From: Pseudochrobactrum asaccharolyticum
Lineage (GTDB): Bacteria; Pseudomonadota; Alphaproteobacteria; Rhizobiales; Rhizobiaceae
DNA length: 43,507 bases
Reading direction: 5' to 3'
NCBI RefSeq assembly: GCF_003314995.1
Contig: NZ_QNRH01000015.1
Location: forward strand, 1-43,507
This document shows positions 26,259 through 32,900 of this stretch, piece after piece; the stretch's first letter is position 1, and each line of letters begins with the position of its first letter. The notes below the pieces were generated by a model that worked only from the letters and a program-made list of their open reading frames with translations, ran no database searches and had not been told where the DNA came from. The position numbers and the translations under genes are program-made.

Positions 26259-27049
26259 TCACCGGCCACGCATTCTTGCCGCCGCTTCATTGTGCCTGTC
26301 TATTCGGGCTTGATTGTCTCTAATCTCCCCTCGGAAAGAGGAAATGTAAGCTTCATCCATCGCTTTCAGGATTTTGAATTCAAACGGCTTCATGCCCCGA
26401 CCAGTCAGCCGAGACCATGCATCATAATCAGCAACAGATATGCGCTTGTCAGCTTCCTGCCTCATGTTGGACAGGTCGAAAAACCACTCCCAAAGGTAGC
26501 TGCCCGCTAAAGGGATAACGATGTGCGGCGACGGCTCGTCAACGCGTGCGTAACGCTGCCGTCGCGTCTCACCGTTATGATCCGGCGTGTCGTATCGAAT
26601 ATGATCACGAACCGCCGTGCACAGATCATCCTTTAGCGTTTCATAAAATTTGAGATTTTACTGACCTGTGCGTCCAACTGTTTCTGGATCCAGTCTTTTG
26701 AAAGCAACTTCATCTTATTCTCAAGGGTAAGAGCAGGCTCATCTTCATCGCCATCCTCAAGAACATTGCCGTTAAAATCCCAACCGACAATCGCCGCCGC
26801 AATGCGCTCACGCGCAACCTGCATGCCGATAGTCAGGCGCTCATTCCCTGCGATTTTCTGGCTAATGTCCGGCTGTAGAAGGTGCTCACGGAACACACTA
26901 ACTGCAACATCGGACTCAATCGAAACCAAATCAAAGAAAACACCAAGGCCTGTGCCATTAGCAGGATTTTTAAGCTCGTACCGGATCGGCGTGTTGTAAT
27001 CGACCAAGCCAAGAATTGAGCGCTTAGTTGAGGTTTTGTTTTTAGGCAT
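26259..27049 (-). CDS. tail assembly chaperone G-T fusion made by -1 frameshift
   Basis: G (26633-27049) is read to A_AAT_TTT at 26645-26651, then a slip of one base back joins an open frame that runs without a stop to 26259. Total 263 residues (135 plus 128). The T part includes CTAVRDHIRYDTPDHNGETR, VIPLAGSYLWEWFFDLSNMR and DYDAWSRLTGRGMKPFEF; the WFFDLS motif is common in T domains of tail chaperones. This is the same logic as lambda G/GT, with the tape measure protein starting 14 nt downstream. An independent ATG at 26465 exists but leaves out the conserved part. Confidence 0.85.
26633..27049 (-). CDS. tail assembly chaperone G
   Basis: 138 residues. Begins MPKNKTSTKRSILGLVDYNT and has VFFDLVSIESDVAVSVFREH, ERIAAAIVGWDFNGNV and the terminal ..VSKISNFMKR. 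Ends at TAA 26633, 10 nt after the slippery site. It binds the tape measure protein during tail assembly and does not stay in the virion (lambda G paradigm). It follows a minus-strand terminator at 27061-27090, so it starts a new transcript or is reached by antitermination. Confidence 0.8.
   Translation of the reverse strand: MPKNKTSTKRSILGLVDYNTPIRYELKNPANGTGLGVFFDLVSIESDVAVSVFREHLLQPDISQKIAGNERLTIGMQVARERIAAAIVGWDFNGNVLEDGDEDEPALTLENKMKLLSKDWIQKQLDAQVSKISNFMKR
26645..26651 (-). other. -1 frameshift site A_AAT_TTT of the tail chaperone
   Basis: On the minus strand the codons are TCA-AAT-TTT-ATG; slipping AAT-TTT back one base reads AAA-TTT and continues TAT-GAA-ACG. This is a legal X_XXY_YYZ heptamer in exactly the right place. 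Confidence 0.8.
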
Positions 27050-27060
27050 TTTCTGTCCTT

Positions 27061-27090
27061 TAAAAAAGAAAAGCCCCGCATGAGCGAGGC
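27061..27090 (-). terminator. minus-strand terminator ahead of the chaperone gene
   Basis: Read on the minus strand: GCCTCGC-TCAT-GCGGGGC then TTTTCTTTTTT, a 7-bp stem with one mismatch. It should end transcripts from the accessory block. Confidence 0.7.
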
Positions 27091-27177
27091 TGTGTAAGGT
27101 TACGCAATATCCGTAACCACCTAATCGTAAATTAACTTCTCCATGTGATGTTCTGTATAAAATTTATGGAGATTAGA

Positions 27178-27414
27178 ATGGTAAAACCTAGTAAAATAGA
27201 AAAAATTAAGGCCACCTCAGCAATGTATGCAAACATGAGTGTCGTTCTTTTTGCAGGCGCAATTTTTAGCATTTTATTGCAGAGTGTAAAAGGGGCTAAT
27301 CTTGATTTTGCTGTGGCTATTATCACTGCGGGAGTGTTTATTGGCTTTAGTATTTTTAGTAAATCTCACTCCCTCAAGGAACTTGAAAAGCTTGATACTC
27401 TAACGGAGGAATGA
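27178..27414 (+). CDS. small two-helix membrane protein, 78 aa
   Basis: ATG 27178 has GGAG 9 nt upstream. Two hydrophobic helices (SVVLFAGAIFSILLQS and FAVAIITAGVFIGFSIF) join a basic N terminus (KPSKIEKIKATS) to a charged tail. The charges place both ends in the cytoplasm. It sits in its own plus-strand cassette with a terminator. Possible superinfection or toxin-linked role, unproven. Confidence 0.6.
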   Translation: MVKPSKIEKIKATSAMYANMSVVLFAGAIFSILLQSVKGANLDFAVAIITAGVFIGFSIFSKSHSLKELEKLDTLTEE

Positions 27415-27415
27415 A

Positions 27416-27440
27416 AAGGCGGCCTGAGCCGCCTTCTTTT
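27416..27440. terminator. repeated hairpin terminator, copy 1
   Basis: AAGGCGGC-CTGA-GCCGCCTT followed by CTTTT, with A's before it, so it can work on both strands. The same 27 bases occur again at 28644-28670. Confidence 0.85.
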
Positions 27441-27465
27441 ATTATGCAATTATCGCTAGTGCAGC

Positions 27466-27852
27466 TTACTCACTAAGAGCCTTTAGTGTTTTGACCAACG
27501 CATGGAGGTGTATACCAACCATAGATTCTATGGTCTTAGAAAACTCCAAGAACTCCTGCGCTACATCTCTGGGAAGAGTGCATATCTTTCTTGGCTTTAA
27601 TCTTTCAAGCTCGGCTTTTGATTTTTGAATAACTGTTGGGCAGCTAAAAACGGTTCGGCCTGATCTCGACTCTTTCATTTCTGGTATTCGCTGGCAATCA
27701 ATAGCGAAATGATCCTCATATTCCCCCTCTGAATTCAGGAACATAAAGCCATATTTTGAATTTCCGCCATTGAAGACGAAACAAAAGTGAAATTTTGCTT
27801 TCCCCGCCACCGCGCTTTCAAAGAGCACGATGTCCCCCACTTCAAAATCCAT
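27466..27852 (-). CDS. probable toxin of a Panacea-type pair (SH3-barrel-like)
   Basis: 128 residues. It starts MDFEVGDIVLFESAVAG, a GDIV strand that resembles the start of MazF/PemK-type barrels, and continues CFVFNGGNSKYGFMFLNSEG. RTVFSCPTVIQKSKAELERLKPRKICTL resembles the second half of such toxins. It begins 3 nt after the DUF4065 gene, typical toxin-partner spacing. Activity is inferred from context; an RNase is the main candidate. Confidence 0.6.
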   Translation of the reverse strand: MDFEVGDIVLFESAVAGKAKFHFCFVFNGGNSKYGFMFLNSEGEYEDHFAIDCQRIPEMKESRSGRTVFSCPTVIQKSKAELERLKPRKICTLPRDVAQEFLEFSKTIESMVGIHLHALVKTLKALSE

Positions 27853-27855
27853 ATC

Positions 27856-28437
27856 TTACAATCCAGATATGTCTTGAAGTTCACGCGCTTTATCGAAGTT
27901 CGGGACTTCAAATAACAACCCTAAACTCATCGGGTATTGTTTACGGTCACCATCATCCTCCCAAGCGTCTACATAAGCAGGGTCTTCATGAGTGAGCCGT
28001 CTAATTTGACCAAACCCCAAGCTTTTGACAGTAATTGCCGCTTCGTTTAGCGCCTTCTTGTCACTCAATGAAAGATGATCATCCACCCACGAGACATCAC
28101 TATTTGAGTATATAAAAAGACCACGCTCACCTTTTTCCATATCCCAAGGCAATTCATCAAGATTATACATTCGCATAGTATGCGCGTTACGTTTTAGAAT
28201 ATCGTAAGCTACCGTAGGCACTGGCCCATGATACATAGCAACATAATTATCAGATGATATTAGCCGACCATATCTGTTAAGGTGAGCTCGATCGGCCAGA
28301 AACATAGTTTTTACTATATCATATTGCGTAACGACATGATTATTCTCGCTAGCAGCTTTTATAATATAGCTGATAGCTGCAATAATTTTGTCTATGTTTG
28401 GCACAAGGTTAGCTATCTCAGCCTTTTTGCGTTCCAT
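27856..28437 (-). CDS. DUF4065/Panacea-domain antitoxin (SocA-like)
   Basis: 193 residues. The Panacea (DUF4065) core is clear: IIAAISYIIKAASENN, QYDIVKTMFLADRAHLNRYG (about 38-57), NYVAMYHGPVPTVAYDILK (about 64-82) and LSDKKALNEAAITVKSLGF. These domains act as antitoxins for diverse toxins. The gene order antitoxin then toxin and the strong upstream promoter support this. The C-terminal tail (from about 150) probably contacts the partner. Confidence 0.82.
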   Translation of the reverse strand: MERKKAEIANLVPNIDKIIAAISYIIKAASENNHVVTQYDIVKTMFLADRAHLNRYGRLISSDNYVAMYHGPVPTVAYDILKRNAHTMRMYNLDELPWDMEKGERGLFIYSNSDVSWVDDHLSLSDKKALNEAAITVKSLGFGQIRRLTHEDPAYVDAWEDDGDRKQYPMSLGLLFEVPNFDKARELQDISGL

Positions 28438-28474
28438 CTGATTCTTGCCCCGCGTTTGAGGACGCCTTACTACA

Positions 28475-28504
28475 AATTTACAGATTATTAAAGATAACTG
28501 TCAA
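28475..28504 (-). promoter_or_regulatory. promoter of the Panacea pair
   Basis: Minus-strand TTGACA at 28499-28504 (consensus), spacer 17-18, GTAAAT/TAAATT at 28475-28481. Predicted start about 30 nt before the antitoxin ATG at 28437. Confidence 0.55.
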
Positions 28505-28577
28505 TCTGGTTAATTTGATGACGCCCTGCAACCTTCATAAGTGATCGGTCGATCACATCCAACTCATGCCCTGTCAT
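28488..28577 (-). CDS. possible tiny protein, 29 aa
   Basis: MTGHELDVIDRSLMKVAGRH and a short tail, with GAGGGG just before the ATG at 28577. It overlaps the -35 of the Panacea promoter. It looks like the N-terminal part of a longer lost protein or a real leader peptide. Contains the near-palindrome at 28541-28556. Confidence 0.3.
   Translation of the reverse strand: MTGHELDVIDRSLMKVAGRHQINQIDSYL
28541..28556. repeat. near-palindrome GTGATCG-GT-CGATCAC
   Basis: A 7-bp inverted repeat spaced by two bases, about 40 bp upstream of the Panacea promoter -35. Could be an operator. Confidence 0.35.
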
Positions 28578-28645
28578 TGCCCCCTCGGCATTTCCATCAC
28601 TACTAGTAAAGTACATTTATGCAGTTATGCCGCGATCCTAACAAA

Positions 28646-28670
28646 AAGGCGGCCTGAGCCGCCTTCTTTT
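28646..28670. terminator. repeated hairpin terminator, copy 2
   Basis: Identical to the hairpin at 27416-27440. It ends the antirepressor transcript on the minus strand. Confidence 0.85.
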
Positions 28671-28707
28671 GTCATTGCTAAATCACAGTAGTTGGACAAA
28701 GCCATCA

Positions 28708-28926
28708 TTATCGCTGCCGGATAAGCCCGCATCTTACTTTGTGGTCAAGAAAAGAATCCCAATGACCACCATGCAGCTTTTGCATTGCTTCGCAGAGCTT
28801 TGCAGCATGGTATTCGCAGAGTTCTTCAAGTGTCATGGCCTGACTTGACGCTGCAAGCGCCAAAGCAGGGGCAGCAATGACAGCACCTGCAACCGGTGCA
28901 GCACAGAGGAAAGAGCGACGGTTCAT
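28708..28926 (-). CDS. small protein with a Tat-type signal, 72 aa
   Basis: Starts MNRRSFLCAAPVAGAVIAAP, a twin-arginine (NRRSFL) signal with a hydrophobic core ending near ALALAAS, followed by a 45-residue mature part (EELCEYHAAKLCEAMQKLHGGH and a C-terminal CGLIRQR) with three Cys. Its ATG overlaps the antirepressor stop (ATGA), so the two are translationally coupled. It should be exported folded. Such a partner for an antirepressor is unusual. Confidence 0.65.
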   Translation of the reverse strand: MNRRSFLCAAPVAGAVIAAPALALAASSQAMTLEELCEYHAAKLCEAMQKLHGGHWDSFLDHKVRCGLIRQR

Positions 28927-29660
28927 GCTGCGCCCCTCATTCTTAGGTCATCAGGGACGCGTTCATTAAGGTATTTCAGCCCTTTAGGAGTGATAAACGC
29001 CTGCGGCCGCACCTTATCATCGATCAGAGTAGTCTTTACTTCAAAGATGCCCATCTGGATGAACTGAACACGCGCCACCAGATTGCCGCCCTGATAAAAC
29101 AGATAATGCTCTTTCAGCCAACGGATGAATAGGTTTGGCCGGCAATTAAGTGCCCGCGCTGCATTTTGAAGGCCATAAAGACCGTCAGCGTTCATGAACT
29201 GATCGAAGAACTGAGTTTTCGGCTTATCCGCTTCAATGCGACCCTCAAGCTCGATAACCTTCTCGCTGTACGTAAGAAGTAAACCCCGCATAGCAGCCGG
29301 ATTATTAAGAACTGCAACCGGATCAACTGCATTTTTGGCTCGGCGCTCACATTCGATGAAATACTGACGAGCCTGCTTGCCCTTTTCGTTGCGCTCTACC
29401 ATGGCAAGCTCTTTCGCCATATCCAACGAGATATGGTATTCGCGGCTCGGTCGGCCACCGGATGTAGTTTTACTCAATTCCGAGTAAAAGTCCTTTCCTT
29501 CCTCAAATTCGTATTCCGTGATCCTGCGAGAGACCCAATCATTGAAGCGAACACCAAGTTCAAGAAATGAGTGTAACTCACGAGCATTAACCGTCTGGAT
29601 TGTTTCTGATCCGATAGTCCCTTCCATAACGGCAGGGAATGCAGTATTGTTATTTGGCAT
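28923..29660 (-). CDS. ant: AntA/AntB-domain antirepressor
   Basis: 245 residues from ATG 29660, with GAGGT upstream. N-terminal AntA domain: ETIQTVNARELHSFLELGVR, FNDWVSRRITEYEFEEGKDF and GGRPSREYHISLDMAKELAM. C-terminal KilA-C/ANT-like domain: QFFDQFMNADGLYGLQNAAR and FIRWLKEHYLFYQGGNLVAR. Antirepressors bind and inactivate phage repressors to force lytic growth. It sits downstream of an Arc-like gene, as ant does in P22. Confidence 0.88.
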   Translation of the reverse strand: MPNNNTAFPAVMEGTIGSETIQTVNARELHSFLELGVRFNDWVSRRITEYEFEEGKDFYSELSKTTSGGRPSREYHISLDMAKELAMVERNEKGKQARQYFIECERRAKNAVDPVAVLNNPAAMRGLLLTYSEKVIELEGRIEADKPKTQFFDQFMNADGLYGLQNAARALNCRPNLFIRWLKEHYLFYQGGNLVARVQFIQMGIFEVKTTLIDDKVRPQAFITPKGLKYLNERVPDDLRMRGAA

Positions 29661-29699
29661 TTGATACCTCATCGTTTCAATTGTTATGAAAAAGCTGGA

Positions 29700-29879
29700 T
29701 TATGCTGTGGTAGGCGATCCGGCTTTTTCGTTTTCTATGGCTTCAAGACCCTTCTCGACCAAGTCTCGAACAGCTGCGGCTCTCGCCCCGATTCTCTGCT
29801 CAAAGCGATAATCATCAATCTTTTTTATCAAAGATGGCTCCCACATGATGGGAACACGCTCAGTCTTAGCTTCCGACAA
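29700..29879 (-). CDS. ribbon-helix-helix regulator, Arc-like position, 59 aa
   Basis: TTG start at 29879 with AGGAG 7 nt upstream. Reads MSEAKTERVPIMWEPSLIKK, then IDDYRFEQRIGARAAAVRDL and VEKGLEAIE: a short strand followed by two helices, an RHH fold. It lies 39 nt ahead of the antirepressor gene in the same operon, as arc before ant in P22. It should bind the three operators and repress its own operon. Confidence 0.75.
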   Translation of the reverse strand: MSEAKTERVPIMWEPSLIKKIDDYRFEQRIGARAAAVRDLVEKGLEAIENEKAGSPTTA

Positions 29880-29908
29880 GTATAACTCCTTTCATTGCTT
29901 ATCTTATT

Positions 29909-29991
29909 AATATGGCCTAGTGCCATATTGTCGTCAAGCCAATATATGGCCTAAGGCCAATATTTATTTATGGCACTAGGCCACATATAAT
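29909..29991. promoter_or_regulatory. divergent control region: three operators and two promoters
   Basis: Three similar palindromes: TATGGCCTAGTGCCATA (29911-29927), TATGGCCTAAGGCCAATA (29945-29962) and TATGGCACTAGGCCACATA (29969-29987). The third is nearly the inverse of the first. Centres are 34 and 24 bp apart. Minus-strand promoter: TTGACG at 29932-29937, 17 nt, CATATT at 29909-29914, with operator 1 in its spacer. Plus-strand promoter: TATAAT at 29986-29991 with a weak -35 near 29963; operator 3 covers its spacer. The plus-strand ATG (29998) is 7 nt after TATAAT with no Shine-Dalgarno, so that mRNA is likely leaderless. Confidence 0.8.
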
Positions 29992-29997
29992 GCTGAC

Positions 29998-30342
29998 ATG
30001 ACACAGGACACGCCAAGCCGCTCTTTAGATAAAGTAATCGTACGCCTACCGGACGGTATGCGTGACCGCATCCGTGAGGCTGCGGAAAATAATAACCGAT
30101 CAATGAATGCTGAGATTGTATCCCGTCTTGAGGCTTCGTTCGGGATGGACATCCCCTTGGTTCAAGGTACAGTAAATACCGTTCAAGGGTTTCAAGCGAT
30201 TGCACAGCAACTCGTTACCTTAACTCAAAATCCTCAATTTCAAGCATTCATAAAAGGCATAGATCAGCCCTCATCAAAAGAGATTGAACACTTACCTAAA
30301 GATGAAAAGCAGCCAAGTTCTCCCACCAAGGCCGACGAATGA
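29998..30342 (+). CDS. Arc/Mnt-family repressor, 114 aa
   Basis: The N terminus has the Arc signature: KVIVRLPDGMRDRIREAAEN (strand plus first helix, 12-31) then NRSMNAEIVSRLEASFG. A C-terminal extension (about 50-114) could tetramerise, as in Mnt. It is divergent from the other RHH and antirepressor genes, exactly the position of mnt in P22. Likely keeps the antirepressor off in lysogens. It starts a three-gene operon joined by ATGA overlaps. Confidence 0.82.
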   Translation: MTQDTPSRSLDKVIVRLPDGMRDRIREAAENNNRSMNAEIVSRLEASFGMDIPLVQGTVNTVQGFQAIAQQLVTLTQNPQFQAFIKGIDQPSSKEIEHLPKDEKQPSSPTKADE

Positions 30343-30560
30343 GCCTGATTCACAACGAGCGCATTAAACTACTGGCGACTTACCTAAACGGCGTAGGCAT
30401 TGCCATTTTTGCCGTCGGTGGTTTTGCGCCAATAATATCAAGCCTTTACAACCAAACAGGGCCAACGCTGATATTAATGCTTGTCAGCCTTGTTTGTTTT
30501 TTGGTGTCCGCTGTATTACATTATGCAGCGAGCAATGTTCTTAAGAGGTTGAAGCCATGA
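30339..30560 (+). CDS. small membrane protein, 73 aa
   Basis: Start overlaps the repressor stop (ATGA). Two hydrophobic helices: NGVGIAIFAVGGFAPIISSL and LILMLVSLVCFLVSAVLHYA, then a basic tail (NVLKRLKP). Coupled to a repressor and to a smaller membrane peptide. Function unknown; a role in immunity or exclusion is possible. Confidence 0.65.
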   Translation: MSLIHNERIKLLATYLNGVGIAIFAVGGFAPIISSLYNQTGPTLILMLVSLVCFLVSAVLHYAASNVLKRLKP

Positions 30561-30652
30561 CAACACTGGAAATCCTATCCCTGCTGATCATGCCTGCTGC
30601 TGGCCTTATCCTTGCAGGTGCAGCCGTCTACTTCGCTAATCACATACGATAA
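30557..30652 (+). CDS. tiny membrane protein, 31 aa
   Basis: Starts in an ATGA overlap with the previous stop. Reads MTTLEILSLLIMPAAGLILA then GAAVYFANHIR, one membrane helix. The overlap arrangement supports real translation. Confidence 0.55.
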   Translation: MTTLEILSLLIMPAAGLILAGAAVYFANHIR

Positions 30653-30706
30653 TTGCCACATTTTGCACGTCCTCAAATTGAGGGCGTACCTTACCAACGA
30701 CAAAGA

Positions 30707-30730
30707 CCCCGCCTAGCGGGGTTTTATTTT
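30707..30730 (+). terminator. terminator of the Mnt-like operon
   Basis: CCCCGC-CTA-GCGGGG followed by TTTTATTTTT. Copies of the same stem occur at 31597 and 32412. Confidence 0.92.
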
Positions 30731-30799
30731 TATAACCTGTGAATCACTCAGGTTTGCATCACTGCGATGCACATCCTCAATTTGAGAATGAATAATTAT

Positions 30800-30850
30800 T
30801 TCCCATTTTGGGAATTATCACTTGTTCCCAAAATGGGAATACGCTATATA
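30800..30850 (+). promoter_or_regulatory. operators and promoter of toxin-antitoxin pair 2
   Basis: Two 15-bp palindromes, TTCCCATTTTGGGAA (30800-30814) and TTCCCAAAATGGGAA (30825-30839), centres 25 bp apart. Promoter TTGTTC at 30822-30827, 17 nt, TATATA at 30845-30850; operator 2 lies on the -35 and spacer. Predicted start is at or next to the ATG 30856, which has no Shine-Dalgarno, so the mRNA should be leaderless. Confidence 0.8.
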
Positions 30851-30855
30851 AAGTC

Positions 30856-31149
30856 ATGCAGATCATAGCCAAAAAAGCACTCAAAGATTTCTGGGTTAAA
30901 CACAATCAAGCTGAGGCACCTTTAACGGCTTGGTATCTAGCAGTAAGCAAGGCCGAATGGTCTGGCCCACAGGATATCAAGGCTATGTTTGGCTCCGCAG
31001 ACTTTGTTGGCGACAATCGCGTTATTTTTGACATCGGCGGCAACAAGTACCGCATCGTTGTACATGTGGCTTACAAATTTCACCGTGTTCTCATCAAATT
31101 TGTCGGAACACATAAAGAGTATGACAAAATCAATCCGGAGAAGGTGTGA
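30856..31149 (+). CDS. higB: HigB-type toxin
   Basis: 97 residues. HigB_toxin pattern: MQIIAKKALKDFWVKHNQAE, LTAWYLAVSKAEWSGPQDIK and the later beta strands VIFDIGGNKYRIVVHVAY and VLIKFVGTHKEYDKI. HigB cleaves mRNA in ribosomes. Start at 30856 rather than 30808 because the family begins MQII and the promoter/operator fit. Followed by the antitoxin with a 1-nt overlap (TGATG). Confidence 0.9.
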   Translation: MQIIAKKALKDFWVKHNQAEAPLTAWYLAVSKAEWSGPQDIKAMFGSADFVGDNRVIFDIGGNKYRIVVHVAYKFHRVLIKFVGTHKEYDKINPEKV

Positions 31150-31556
31150 TGGAAAATATTCGTCCTATTAAAACCGAAGCCGACTATGATTGGGCTATTG
31201 TCGAAATTACCAAATACTTCGAGAATGAACCAGAAGTAGGCTCCCCTGATGGCGACCGCTTCGATGTCCTCGCTACTCTCATTGAAGCATATGAGGATAA
31301 GCACTACCCTATTACGACACCCGACCCTATCGAAGCCATTCAGGCGCACATGAATATGGCAGGATACAAGCAGGCCGCCCTTGCTGATGTAATCGGATCA
31401 CGCTCTCGAGCTTCCGAAGTTCTGAGCAAAAAGCGCCAGCTTACTATGGATATGGCATTCAAGCTCAACAGAGACTGGCACATTCCTGCAGAGGTTCTCA
31501 TACAGCCGTATCATTTGGTGAATGATGACCAGAGAGACAAAGCCAGCGCAACCTAA
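31149..31556 (+). CDS. higA: HigA-type antitoxin
   Basis: 135 residues. N-terminal half is the acidic HigA-type helix bundle (ENIRPIKTEADYDWAIVEI), C-terminal half a helix-turn-helix (AALADVIGSRSRASEVLSKK). Reads YKQAALADVIGSRSR as recognition region. GAGAAGG upstream and the overlap with HigB support ATG 31149. It should bind the two palindromes at 30800-30839. Confidence 0.88.
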   Translation: MENIRPIKTEADYDWAIVEITKYFENEPEVGSPDGDRFDVLATLIEAYEDKHYPITTPDPIEAIQAHMNMAGYKQAALADVIGSRSRASEVLSKKRQLTMDMAFKLNRDWHIPAEVLIQPYHLVNDDQRDKASAT

Positions 31557-31596
31557 CGTTGAAACTCCACATCCATCTCATATCAAGGAAGACTAG

Positions 31597-31616
31597 CCCC
31601 GCATAGCGGGGTTTTA
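31597..31616 (+). terminator. terminator of toxin-antitoxin pair 2
   Basis: CCCCGC-ATA-GCGGGG followed by TTTTATT. Confidence 0.9.
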
Positions 31617-31679
31617 TTCGGCTCGACTCTCTTGCACGACTCTGGTTTGTTTTCTTGCTTAAACAAACGGGGGTTTTTT

Positions 31680-32165
31680 ATGGGTGAGTTACTGGATCGT
31701 GGGTTCCAACGCCAAATTCTAATAGCTTTGCAAAGCGCCTACCCGCGCTCCGTTAAACCTACCGAAATGTTTGGGGAACAAGCCGACAATCGGCTTCTTG
31801 TTAATCTAGCTTATCTAGATGAGCATGATCTAATTGACCTCACGCTATCTACATTCATGGATGGAGAAATTACCCTAGATGCTGCGAAGATTACAGCAGC
31901 AGGTATGGACTTCATCGCTGATGACGGTGGACTCTCTGCTATTCTGGGGGTCGTAACGGTAAAACTTCATGAAGATACTATCCGGCAACTTGTGATAGAC
32001 AAAATTCAGAAGGCGGATGGCGACCAATCTGTAAAATCAGCTCTCATCGACAAAGTGAAAAGCCTCCCTGCTGAGGCACTCGGCAAATTGGCCGTAGATG
32101 GACTTGGCACTGCAATTTCAAAGGCGCCCGACGCCCTCAACTTCCTCACTGATATGCTCGGGTAG
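31680..32165 (+). CDS. phage accessory protein, winged-helix-like N half, 161 aa
   Basis: From ATG 31680: MGELLDRGFQRQILIALQSA, LLVNLAYLDEHDLIDLTLS and ITAAGMDFIADDGG resemble a winged helix. The second half, a helical domain, is shared with the truncated gene at 22679-22948. Preceded by a G-rich site. Its 3' end overlaps the minus-strand gene at 32118 by 48 nt. Role unknown; DNA binding is a guess. Confidence 0.6.
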   Translation: MGELLDRGFQRQILIALQSAYPRSVKPTEMFGEQADNRLLVNLAYLDEHDLIDLTLSTFMDGEITLDAAKITAAGMDFIADDGGLSAILGVVTVKLHEDTIRQLVIDKIQKADGDQSVKSALIDKVKSLPAEALGKLAVDGLGTAISKAPDALNFLTDMLG

Positions 32166-32357
32166 TTCCTTGGATGCTTTGATAAACTCGGCATCGTTGA
32201 TCGGTCGTCCCGCCCTGTGCCGCTTTATCATTTTAATGGCATCGCCCAATTCCATGTTGGCTGAAAGGACGATGTACCAACTTCCATCTGATGCCTGTAT
32301 TGGGCCGCCCGGAATCTGACCTTTAGGGATGGCAATTAGATCAAAATGTTCTTTCAT
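32118..32357 (-). CDS. small protein, 79 aa
   Basis: AGGAG lies about 8 nt before ATG 32357, so it is translated. It starts MKEHFDLIAIPKGQIPGGPI and has SDGSWYIVLSANMELGDAIK then RHRAGRPINDAEFIKASKEL. No family recognised. It lies just downstream of the tail tube gene and may be the last gene of that run. Confidence 0.6.
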   Translation of the reverse strand: MKEHFDLIAIPKGQIPGGPIQASDGSWYIVLSANMELGDAIKMIKRHRAGRPINDAEFIKASKELPEHISEEVEGVGRL

Positions 32358-32411
32358 TAAGCATCTCCTGACAGTTATTTACCGCCTACCCCTGCCTGTC
32401 TCGAAGGCATG

Positions 32412-32432
32412 CCCCGCATAGCGGGGTTTTAT
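32412..32432 (+). terminator. plus-strand terminator, third copy
   Basis: CCCCGC-ATA-GCGGGG then TTTTATTT. It would stop plus-strand transcripts from 31680 just before the tail tube gene. Confidence 0.85.
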
Positions 32433-32900
32433 TTAGGTTGCAGGAACTTCAACACAGCGCTGCTGGAAGCCGCATGTCCATGTGCGTGTCGGGAAATCTT
32501 CTGGGCCTCCACCGGCAATCAATGGGCCAACAATAATGCCGCGATCATAAATCGTTGTACCGGTTCCGCCTGTCGTGAGCTGGTCATTCCATACCCGTTT
32601 GAATGCGTAGTTCATATTGGTCAACGCAAGATCACTCATAAGCTCTTGGCCTGCGTCGCCGGTTTTCAGCTTACAGGTCAATGTGAAATCGCCTGCATTG
32701 GAGATACCCTTGCCTTTCTGCGTGAACTCTGTGTCCATTGTATCAAGACCGACAATGTTTGTATTCGTGCCAGACTCACCGACCTCAGACACAAGCGAAA
32801 CTTTCACCCAGTCAGTGAGCGCCTCGAACTCTATCAGCGCCATATCCTGTGGTTGCGGGGTTTTACTGACATAAAAAGTCATGCCTTTATTTGTTGCCAT
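32433..32900 (-). CDS. major tail tube protein
   Basis: 155 residues. Pattern of siphovirus tail tube proteins: N-terminal MATNKGMTFYVSKTPQPQDM, a central TEFTQKGKGISNAGDFTLTC, FKRVWNDQLTTGGTGTTIYD and a final beta strand TWTCGFQQRCVEV. It follows the tail terminator gene and precedes the accessory block and chaperones, the right order. Forms stacked hexameric rings around the tape measure. Confidence 0.82.
   Translation of the reverse strand: MATNKGMTFYVSKTPQPQDMALIEFEALTDWVKVSLVSEVGESGTNTNIVGLDTMDTEFTQKGKGISNAGDFTLTCKLKTGDAGQELMSDLALTNMNYAFKRVWNDQLTTGGTGTTIYDRGIIVGPLIAGGGPEDFPTRTWTCGFQQRCVEVPAT

Follow-up and report, generated by a model that had tools for sequence, protein, structure and literature searches.

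The 43,507-nucleotide (nt) contig NZ_QNRH01000015.1 of Pseudochrobactrum asaccharolyticum, hereafter referred to as the window and corresponding to IMG/VR contig IMGVR_UViG_2770939620_000003, carries what we consider, with a probability of roughly 0.8, to be an immI-type "ant moron" of the phage P22 kind, that is, a locus in which 2 ribbon-helix-helix (RHH) repressors and probably an antisense RNA restrain the antirepressor Ant. The minus-strand operon consists, in this order, of the gene for RHH1, a 59-amino acid (aa) repressor in the Arc position (29700..29879), ant (28923..29672) and a small open reading frame (ORF) encoding a Tat (twin-arginine translocation)-signal-like protein (MNRRSFL..., 28708..28926), whereas the gene for RHH2, in the Mnt position, lies opposite on the plus strand (29998..30342). 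The same layout, with mnt on the minus strand facing arc-ant on the plus strand, is found in the P22 record (NC_002371). The switch is placed within the tail operon, between genes matching a tail assembly chaperone (26633-27049, phrog_313, E = 3.6e-5) and a major tail protein (32433-32900, phrog_158, E = 2.9e-11), and hence occupies a late-gene position. The window contains a real immI-type switch, which is a variant of the known system and points to a probably general rule extending beyond P22.

RHH2 belongs to the Arc family (PF03869, E = 3.8e-14, 52.7 bits versus a gathering threshold of 20.4), and its nearest PDB entry by sequence is AmrZ (3qoq, E = 9.1e-11), with Arc (1baz) matching at E = 0.0029. 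The ant product combines an AntA domain (PF08346, E = 2.9e-27, 95.5 bits versus 27) with a KilAC/ANT domain (PF03374, E = 1.1e-17, 64.8 bits versus 25.3) and matches phrog_63 (E = 4.6e-49); the true start of the gene is likely at position 29660, behind GAGG. AntA is rare in the host order, being present in 3 of 397 genomes, the host included, and in 23 of 398 genomes of the phylum. RHH1 is read from a TTG start codon with AAAGGAG upstream and matches phrog_4738, annotated as a transcriptional repressor (E = 2.5e-10), as well as, weakly, NikR (E = 0.009). It likely has the RHH fold, but, unlike RHH2, is not a member of PF03869. The circuit would therefore appear to work like immI, as a variant in which Arc has been replaced.

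The gap between the divergent genes contains 3 palindromic operators, O1 (TGGCCTAGTGCCA, 29913..29925), O2 (TGGCCTAAGGCCA, 29947..29959) and O3 (TGGCACTAGGCCA, 29971..29983), each matching TGGC-N5-GCCA, and no other such site is present in the window. Whole-window shuffles contained a mean of 1.0 sites of this type, with at least 3 anywhere in 10 of 100 shuffles, and the host genome holds 129 in 4.65 Mb; the unusual feature of the palindromes is their clustering within 71 nt. When the divergent gap was scored for repeated or palindromic sites, 1 of 300 shuffles reached its value. O1 covers the spacer and the edge of the −10 box of the minus-strand RHH1/ant promoter (TTGACG-17-CATATT, 29937-29909), and O3 sits in the spacer of the plus-strand RHH2 promoter (TTTATT-17-TATAAT, 29963-29991), so that, judged from sequence alone, the operators overlap both divergent promoters as they do in immI. 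Consensus promoters are not more frequent than expected by chance in the region 27000-32500 (10 found versus 10.7 expected), and the −35 box of the RHH2 promoter is too poor for inclusion among them. The −10 box of this promoter ends 6 nt before the ATG, and the RHH2 mRNA is therefore probably almost leaderless. The divergent arrangement of an RHH gene and an AntA antirepressor gene facing an Arc-family gene, the P22-like setting among late genes and the 3 related palindromes on both promoters had been proposed in an initial sequence-only reading of the window, and all are borne out by the protein matches, the P22 record and the promoter positions; the junction hairpin and the probable antisense RNA, described below, had escaped that reading.

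Searches through ant yielded 159 loci, of which 42 contain any RHH match and 28 (24 distinct) a divergent RHH pair; in a few of the latter, e.g., L010, L044 and L081, the pair and the matched ant are not immediate neighbours. The named contigs in this group of 28 come from Bartonella, Brevundimonas, Pararhizobium, Pseudochrobactrum, Laribacter, Aquitalea, Falsiroseomonas, Duganella and Sedimenticola. A scan with the RHH2 profile, together with the genome loci, gave 97 unique pairs (the RHH1 profile was too diverse for use in scans), and 2 further scans, in which 127 of 159 new loci hold a pair, brought the collection to 173 cassettes, defined as clusters below 80% identity. RHH1 and RHH2 were assigned in the cassettes by length, and the domain starts within a pair are spaced by a median of 163 nt. 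Downstream ORFs are lacking in 22 of the 173 cassettes, and 107 of the 151 downstream proteins were hand-picked for a Pfam scan, in which one protein may count in 2 families. KilAC (34), Rha (24), Bro-N (23), AntA (15), KilA-N (9), ORF6N (8) and P22_AR_N (5) were detected, along with a few unrelated families found once each. Since the same divergent layout recurs in 173 clusters, some of them with P22-type Ant domains, P22 immI itself seems to belong, together with the window, to a single mosaic family of cassettes, which speaks against the earlier notion that the window locus is an independently assembled immI.

Exchange of modules is visible when the window sequence is compared with those of loci L007, L011 and L089. 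The 42-nt junction hairpin is identical in these 3 loci and carries 2 changes in the window, yet RHH1 of L011 and L089 is of the Arc type despite the shared hairpin. The ant of L011 matches only residues 105-249 of the window Ant, its N-terminus being of another kind. Locus L007 (3378-4753, G000:C10) represents a second prophage of the same host, and its operators and RHH2 DNA-binding domain are nearly identical to those of the window, whereas the RHH2 C-termini differ; because of this near identity, the 2 prophages should regulate each other. In L086, from a Bartonella metagenome-assembled genome, the cassette comes after genes for a major tail protein and a tail tube, whereas no tail match was obtained in the flanks of L087, L007 and L089, leaving L086 as the only one of the 4 scanned loci with tail genes.

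In RHH proteins, 3 β-strand residues contact bases, as in AmrZ, for which experiment showed that K18, V20 and R22 read the 5'-GGC half-sites in TGGCAAAACGCC (PMC3325190). The β-strand of the window RHH2, K-V-I-V-R, fits this code, and O1-O3 share the AmrZ-type GGC-N5-GCC geometry. The third contact residue is Arg in 339 of 346 aligned RHH domains, the first 2 being variable. At least 2 TGGC..GCCA palindromes are present in 17 of 28 cassettes with an RHH2 of the type [KR].[IV] and in 0 of 145 with other RHH2s (p = 1.5e-16), a grouping that was picked after inspection of the data, the code having been noticed and tested on the same 173 cassettes. For the 100 cassettes in which repeated sites are clear, the contacts of RHH2 are shared with the nearest neighbour by operator sequence in 56 (mean 5.6 and maximum 18 in 2000 permutations) and those of RHH1 in 12 (mean 3.4, maximum 12). 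Where RHH1 and RHH2 have unlike contacts, as in 70 of these cassettes, the neighbour's RHH2 matches the cassette's own RHH2 in 43 cases and its RHH1 in 1 (36 and 1 without gapped contact codes). Common descent was considered as well, because RHH1 is less conserved than RHH2 (median helix identity 0.30 versus 0.52) though both are equally near the operators. Leaving out all neighbours whose RHH2 helices are at least 60% identical still gives 27 of 100 cassettes with shared RHH2 contacts (mean 5.7, maximum 15). Overall, the palindromes look like sites for RHH2 and not for RHH1.

In the P22 record, sar is a 70-nt RNA that begins at the ant start and extends backwards to its terminator at the arc stop, with its promoter within the first ant codons; in our folding, it likewise forms 2 hairpins. 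At the equivalent place in the window, a 42-nt inverted repeat forms a terminator-like hairpin that straddles the RHH1 stop (29688-29729), with U residues at 6 of 9 positions on the antisense side and 3 of 9 on the sense side. Across the cassettes, the junction stem outdoes all of 20 shuffles in 48 of 96 (L273 was dropped from the 97), and the side with more U residues is the antisense one in 73 cassettes and the sense one in 15, with 8 ties, compared with 43 versus 33 at the RHH2 end. The thresholds (stem ≥20, antisense U ≥5 and promoter score ≥7.5 at +4..+14) were set on a first set of cassettes (set 1) and frozen for a held-out set; the RHH profile was also trained on set 1, whose RHH2s served as queries for the held-out set. 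With related cassettes collapsed, the antisense U-tract prevails in set 1 by 70 to 13 (n = 91, 1 of 92 clusters being dropped) and in the held-out set by 65 to 9 (n = 81, p = 1.4e-11), whereas ordinary gene ends of the held-out loci give 75 versus 85 (n = 196) in the same comparison. The P22 junction itself does not reach U ≥5 (3 and 3), because the stem finder extends into the tract.

With a hand-entered sigma-70 matrix, the antisense strand outscores the sense strand in 37 of the 40 cassettes whose hairpin is good. Strong antisense promoters at +4 to +14 of ant were found in 14 of 31 set 1 cassettes with a hairpin (18 cassettes without a downstream ORF were left out of this count) against 3 of 279 control genes, and in 26 of 71 held-out cassettes (14/32 with and 12/39 without a hairpin) against 8 of 204 control genes from the same loci. 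In 42 cassettes chosen for a clear hairpin and promoter, the predicted RNA has a median length of 75 nt, a value conditional on the hairpin and promoter positions, and 2 hairpins in 39 cases. The 5' hairpin, compared with shuffles in 40 of these 42 RNAs, has a mean z of −2.05, with z < −1 in 36 (controls: mean 0.06, 32/200), and the anti-Shine-Dalgarno bases are only slightly less paired than the remainder of the 5' part (unpaired 0.59 versus 0.47 in 34 RNAs). The Rfam sar model matches 1 of 20 loci at the gathering threshold (L364) and 5 of 10 loci at E ≤ 1, namely, L378 and L218 at about 2e-4 to 3e-4, and L398, L461 (a partial match) and L374 at 0.14-0.66; all these matches fall within the predicted RNA. 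A covariance model (R1) built from 39 of the 42 predicted RNAs, excluding P22, the window, L007, L011 and L089, ranked P22 sar first (32.4 bits) and, further down, the junctions of L089, L011 and L007. In a separate observation, L155 contains a C4 antisense RNA (2834-2916; Rfam, 75 bits) within its predicted downstream ORF (2350-2973), and the cassette also has a predicted sar-like RNA, suggesting 2 antisense controls at one locus.

The candidate sar-like RNA of the window (29657-29738, plus strand) spans the ant ribosome-binding site and is predicted to fold into 2 hairpins (z = −5.1). Its 5' hairpin has z = −3.0, which was equalled by 8 of 500 shuffles, and the bases complementary to the ant Shine-Dalgarno sequence (CCUC) are mostly within the 5' loop. 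The candidate promoter, TTCCAT-17-TATTGT (29622..29650, plus strand), lies within the first ant codons, and its 2 boxes can be read at the corresponding position of L007 and L089 as well. Collectively, these features incline us to the view that the window phage makes a sar-like antisense RNA.

A number of results weigh against the P22-type interpretation. No lysogeny repressor was recognized in our analysis as a target of Ant. No Pfam match is listed for RHH1 up to E = 10, nothing significant was found for it in the PDB, and its profile is not significantly similar to that of RHH2; the AlphaFold monomer is a single helix (pLDDT 76, pTM 0.40). The antisense promoter of the window is weak (5.5 versus a mean of 4.1 for the best sites of control genes), and the best-scoring antisense site (9.9) is too near the hairpin for a sar-like RNA. 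Rfam sar (RF00262) has no match in the window at the gathering threshold of 43 bits, and none at E ≤ 5 in 28600-31000. The R1 match to the window junction (29662-29735) is weak (E = 0.24) and third among the window hits; furthermore, R1 was trained on a set that included sar-matching loci (L218, L364 and L378 among them), and its second match is a P22 late terminator (30.5 bits), showing that the model is not very specific. The P22 5' hairpin itself reaches a z of only −0.7 in the same test. Finally, when only neighbours below 50% RHH2 helix identity are considered, 5 of 100 share the RHH2 contacts (permutation mean 5.8), which is the chance level. Because the link between contacts and operators vanishes at this distance, shared descent of RHH2 and its operators is a possible explanation, and the contact code appears to be supported at middle RHH2 distances but not at large ones.

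The junction hairpin might alternatively be an ordinary attenuator on the sense mRNA, lowering ant relative to RHH1, with no antisense RNA in the window phage. The U residues on both sides of the window stem and the weak antisense promoter are compatible with such a role, which we nevertheless consider unlikely, given the antisense bias of the U-tract across both sets of cassettes and the distribution of stems qualifying as terminators (stem ≥20, U ≥5), which occur on the sense strand in 7 of 91 and 4 of 81 cassettes versus 37 and 34 on the antisense strand, as opposed to 16 versus 15 of 196 ordinary gene ends. Less probable still is that both RHH proteins share the 3 palindromes, as the sequence-only reading had anticipated. 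Identical contact codes in RHH1 and RHH2 are indeed seen in 53 of 173 cassettes, where about 9 would be expected (alignment gaps counted as letters), but the contacts of the window RHH1, R-V-P-I-M, differ from those of RHH2, and where the 2 proteins differ, the operators agree with RHH2 far more often than with RHH1; binding by RHH1 need not be assumed. An even more distant alternative is that the circuit is a toxin-antitoxin system or a regulator of host genes, and that Ant is in practice not an antirepressor. Toxin-antitoxin-like genes (HigB and SocA/Panacea) do adjoin the switch, and KilA-type domains are named for host killing. However, antirepressor-type families head the list of downstream proteins and the layout is that of immI, making this explanation very improbable.

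In the P22-type switch that we favor, RHH2 would be produced from its almost leaderless promoter, and we infer that it binds O1-O3 through the K, I and R residues of the β-strand. Bound RHH2 would shut the divergent RHH1-ant promoter and limit its own synthesis. RHH1, translated first on the ant mRNA, may damp it in the manner of Arc. The antisense RNA, short in length, would start at the first ant codons, end at the hairpin of the RHH1/ant junction and pair with the ant ribosome-binding site. Upon loss of repression, Ant would disable a lysogeny repressor, so that lysis would be favored.

The window and P22 immI have in common an RHH gene divergent from an operon of a small RHH gene and ant, the operators in the gap, the antisense-strand junction hairpin at the arc (in the window, RHH1) stop, the insertion into a late operon and the extra genes after mnt (RHH2). 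They differ in that the window has one operator in 3 copies, whereas P22 has one Arc and one Mnt site; the window Ant is of the AntA+KilAC type and that of P22 of the P22_AR type; RHH1 is outside the Arc family (PF03869), to which both P22 repressors belong; Tat-like and small membrane proteins are added in the window; and its candidate antisense RNA is not recognized by Rfam. AmrZ of Pseudomonas aeruginosa resembles the window RHH2 in its β-strand code (K, V/I, R) and site geometry, but is a chromosomal regulator and not a phage immunity protein. As to phages P1 and P7, Ant1 of P1 is of the AntA/KilAC kind, c4 RNA comes from sense-strand transcription ahead of ant, and we know of no RHH repressors in their immI; C4 RNA has no match in the window at the Rfam gathering threshold. 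Their immI nevertheless resembles the arrangement proposed here in that an antirepressor is held by an antisense RNA, c4, as outlined in a 2025 review, which also gives sar for P22 (PMC12197685). Other publications name the P22 region "ant moron" and describe its variation among P22-like phages (PMC2629481), summarize what Mnt, Arc, sar and Ant do (PMC11016777), and, in a paper from 2026, state that sar has been described in a number of phage genomes (PMC13397905). The published sar work that we found, mostly in the open literature, concerns P22 and P22-like phages, and none of it deals with AntA, Rha or Bro-N cassettes or with the operator code.

On the plus strand, RHH2 is followed by ORFs of 73 aa (30339..30560) and 31 aa (30557..30652), each coupled to the preceding one by an ATGA overlap, and by a terminator (30707..30727). 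Hydrophobic stretches long enough to span the membrane, a single one in the 31-aa peptide, agree with the 2 small coupled membrane proteins predicted by the sequence-only reading, although both remain putative; the 73-aa ORF has no family over the cut-off in the Pfam scan. Membrane genes 3' of RHH2 are no general rule, a predicted span being present in 16 of the 58 cassettes (out of 173) with a detected next ORF. On the minus strand, the Tat-signal-like ORF overlaps the ant stop by ATGA and matches phrog_32610 (E = 1.5e-6). The Tat-exported partner of the same reading corresponds to this ORF; the Pfam TAT model matches only at E = 1.3, so the label rests on the RRSFL motif. MNRRSF-type ORFs are found near the cassette in L007 and L011, similar ones in L274 and L342, and a longer one in L513. 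Tat-type proteins were counted within 1.8 kb of RHH1 in 5 of 173 cassettes by a script that was too strict, missing L007 and L011. In L513 (2291-3725), both cassette arms match phrog_4738 or the window RHH1, the junction inverted repeat is present, and a Tat-signal-like protein stands where the antirepressor would be.

The surroundings of the switch contain further repeated elements. Identical 25-nt terminators (AAGGCGGCCTGAGCCGCCTTCTTTT) at 27416-27440 and 28646-28670 bracket 2 genes, one for a SocA/Panacea-domain protein (27856-28437) and an adjacent one for a product of 128 aa (27466-27852), which gives the impression that both arrived as a single unit. Three near-identical terminators (CCCCGCNTAGCGGGGTTTTAT) lie in the tail-gene gap, at 30707-30727, 31597-31617 and 32412-32432, and could represent a recombination seam between inserted units. 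Adjoining the switch, the region 30856-31556 encodes a HigB-type toxin (PF09907, E = 2.4e-31) and a helix-turn-helix protein with a weak HigA match.

P22 immI is the textbook case and has been studied in P22-like phages. We find it quite likely that it is one instance of a very widespread mosaic cassette of proteobacterial phages, composed of an Mnt-type RHH protein with a readable operator code, an exchangeable second RHH protein, a sar-type RNA of about 75 nt with 2 hairpins that is mostly unrecognizable by sequence, and interchangeable antirepressors (AntA, Rha, Bro-N, KilA-N, ORF6N and P22_AR). If so, antirepressors of cassette-bearing phages would, as a rule, be under antisense control, and well over 100 antirepressor-type operons in the present collection would be under predictable three-layer control by 2 RHH proteins and an antisense RNA. 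Operators may then be predictable from a few RHH2 residues, and so may cross-talk between prophages.

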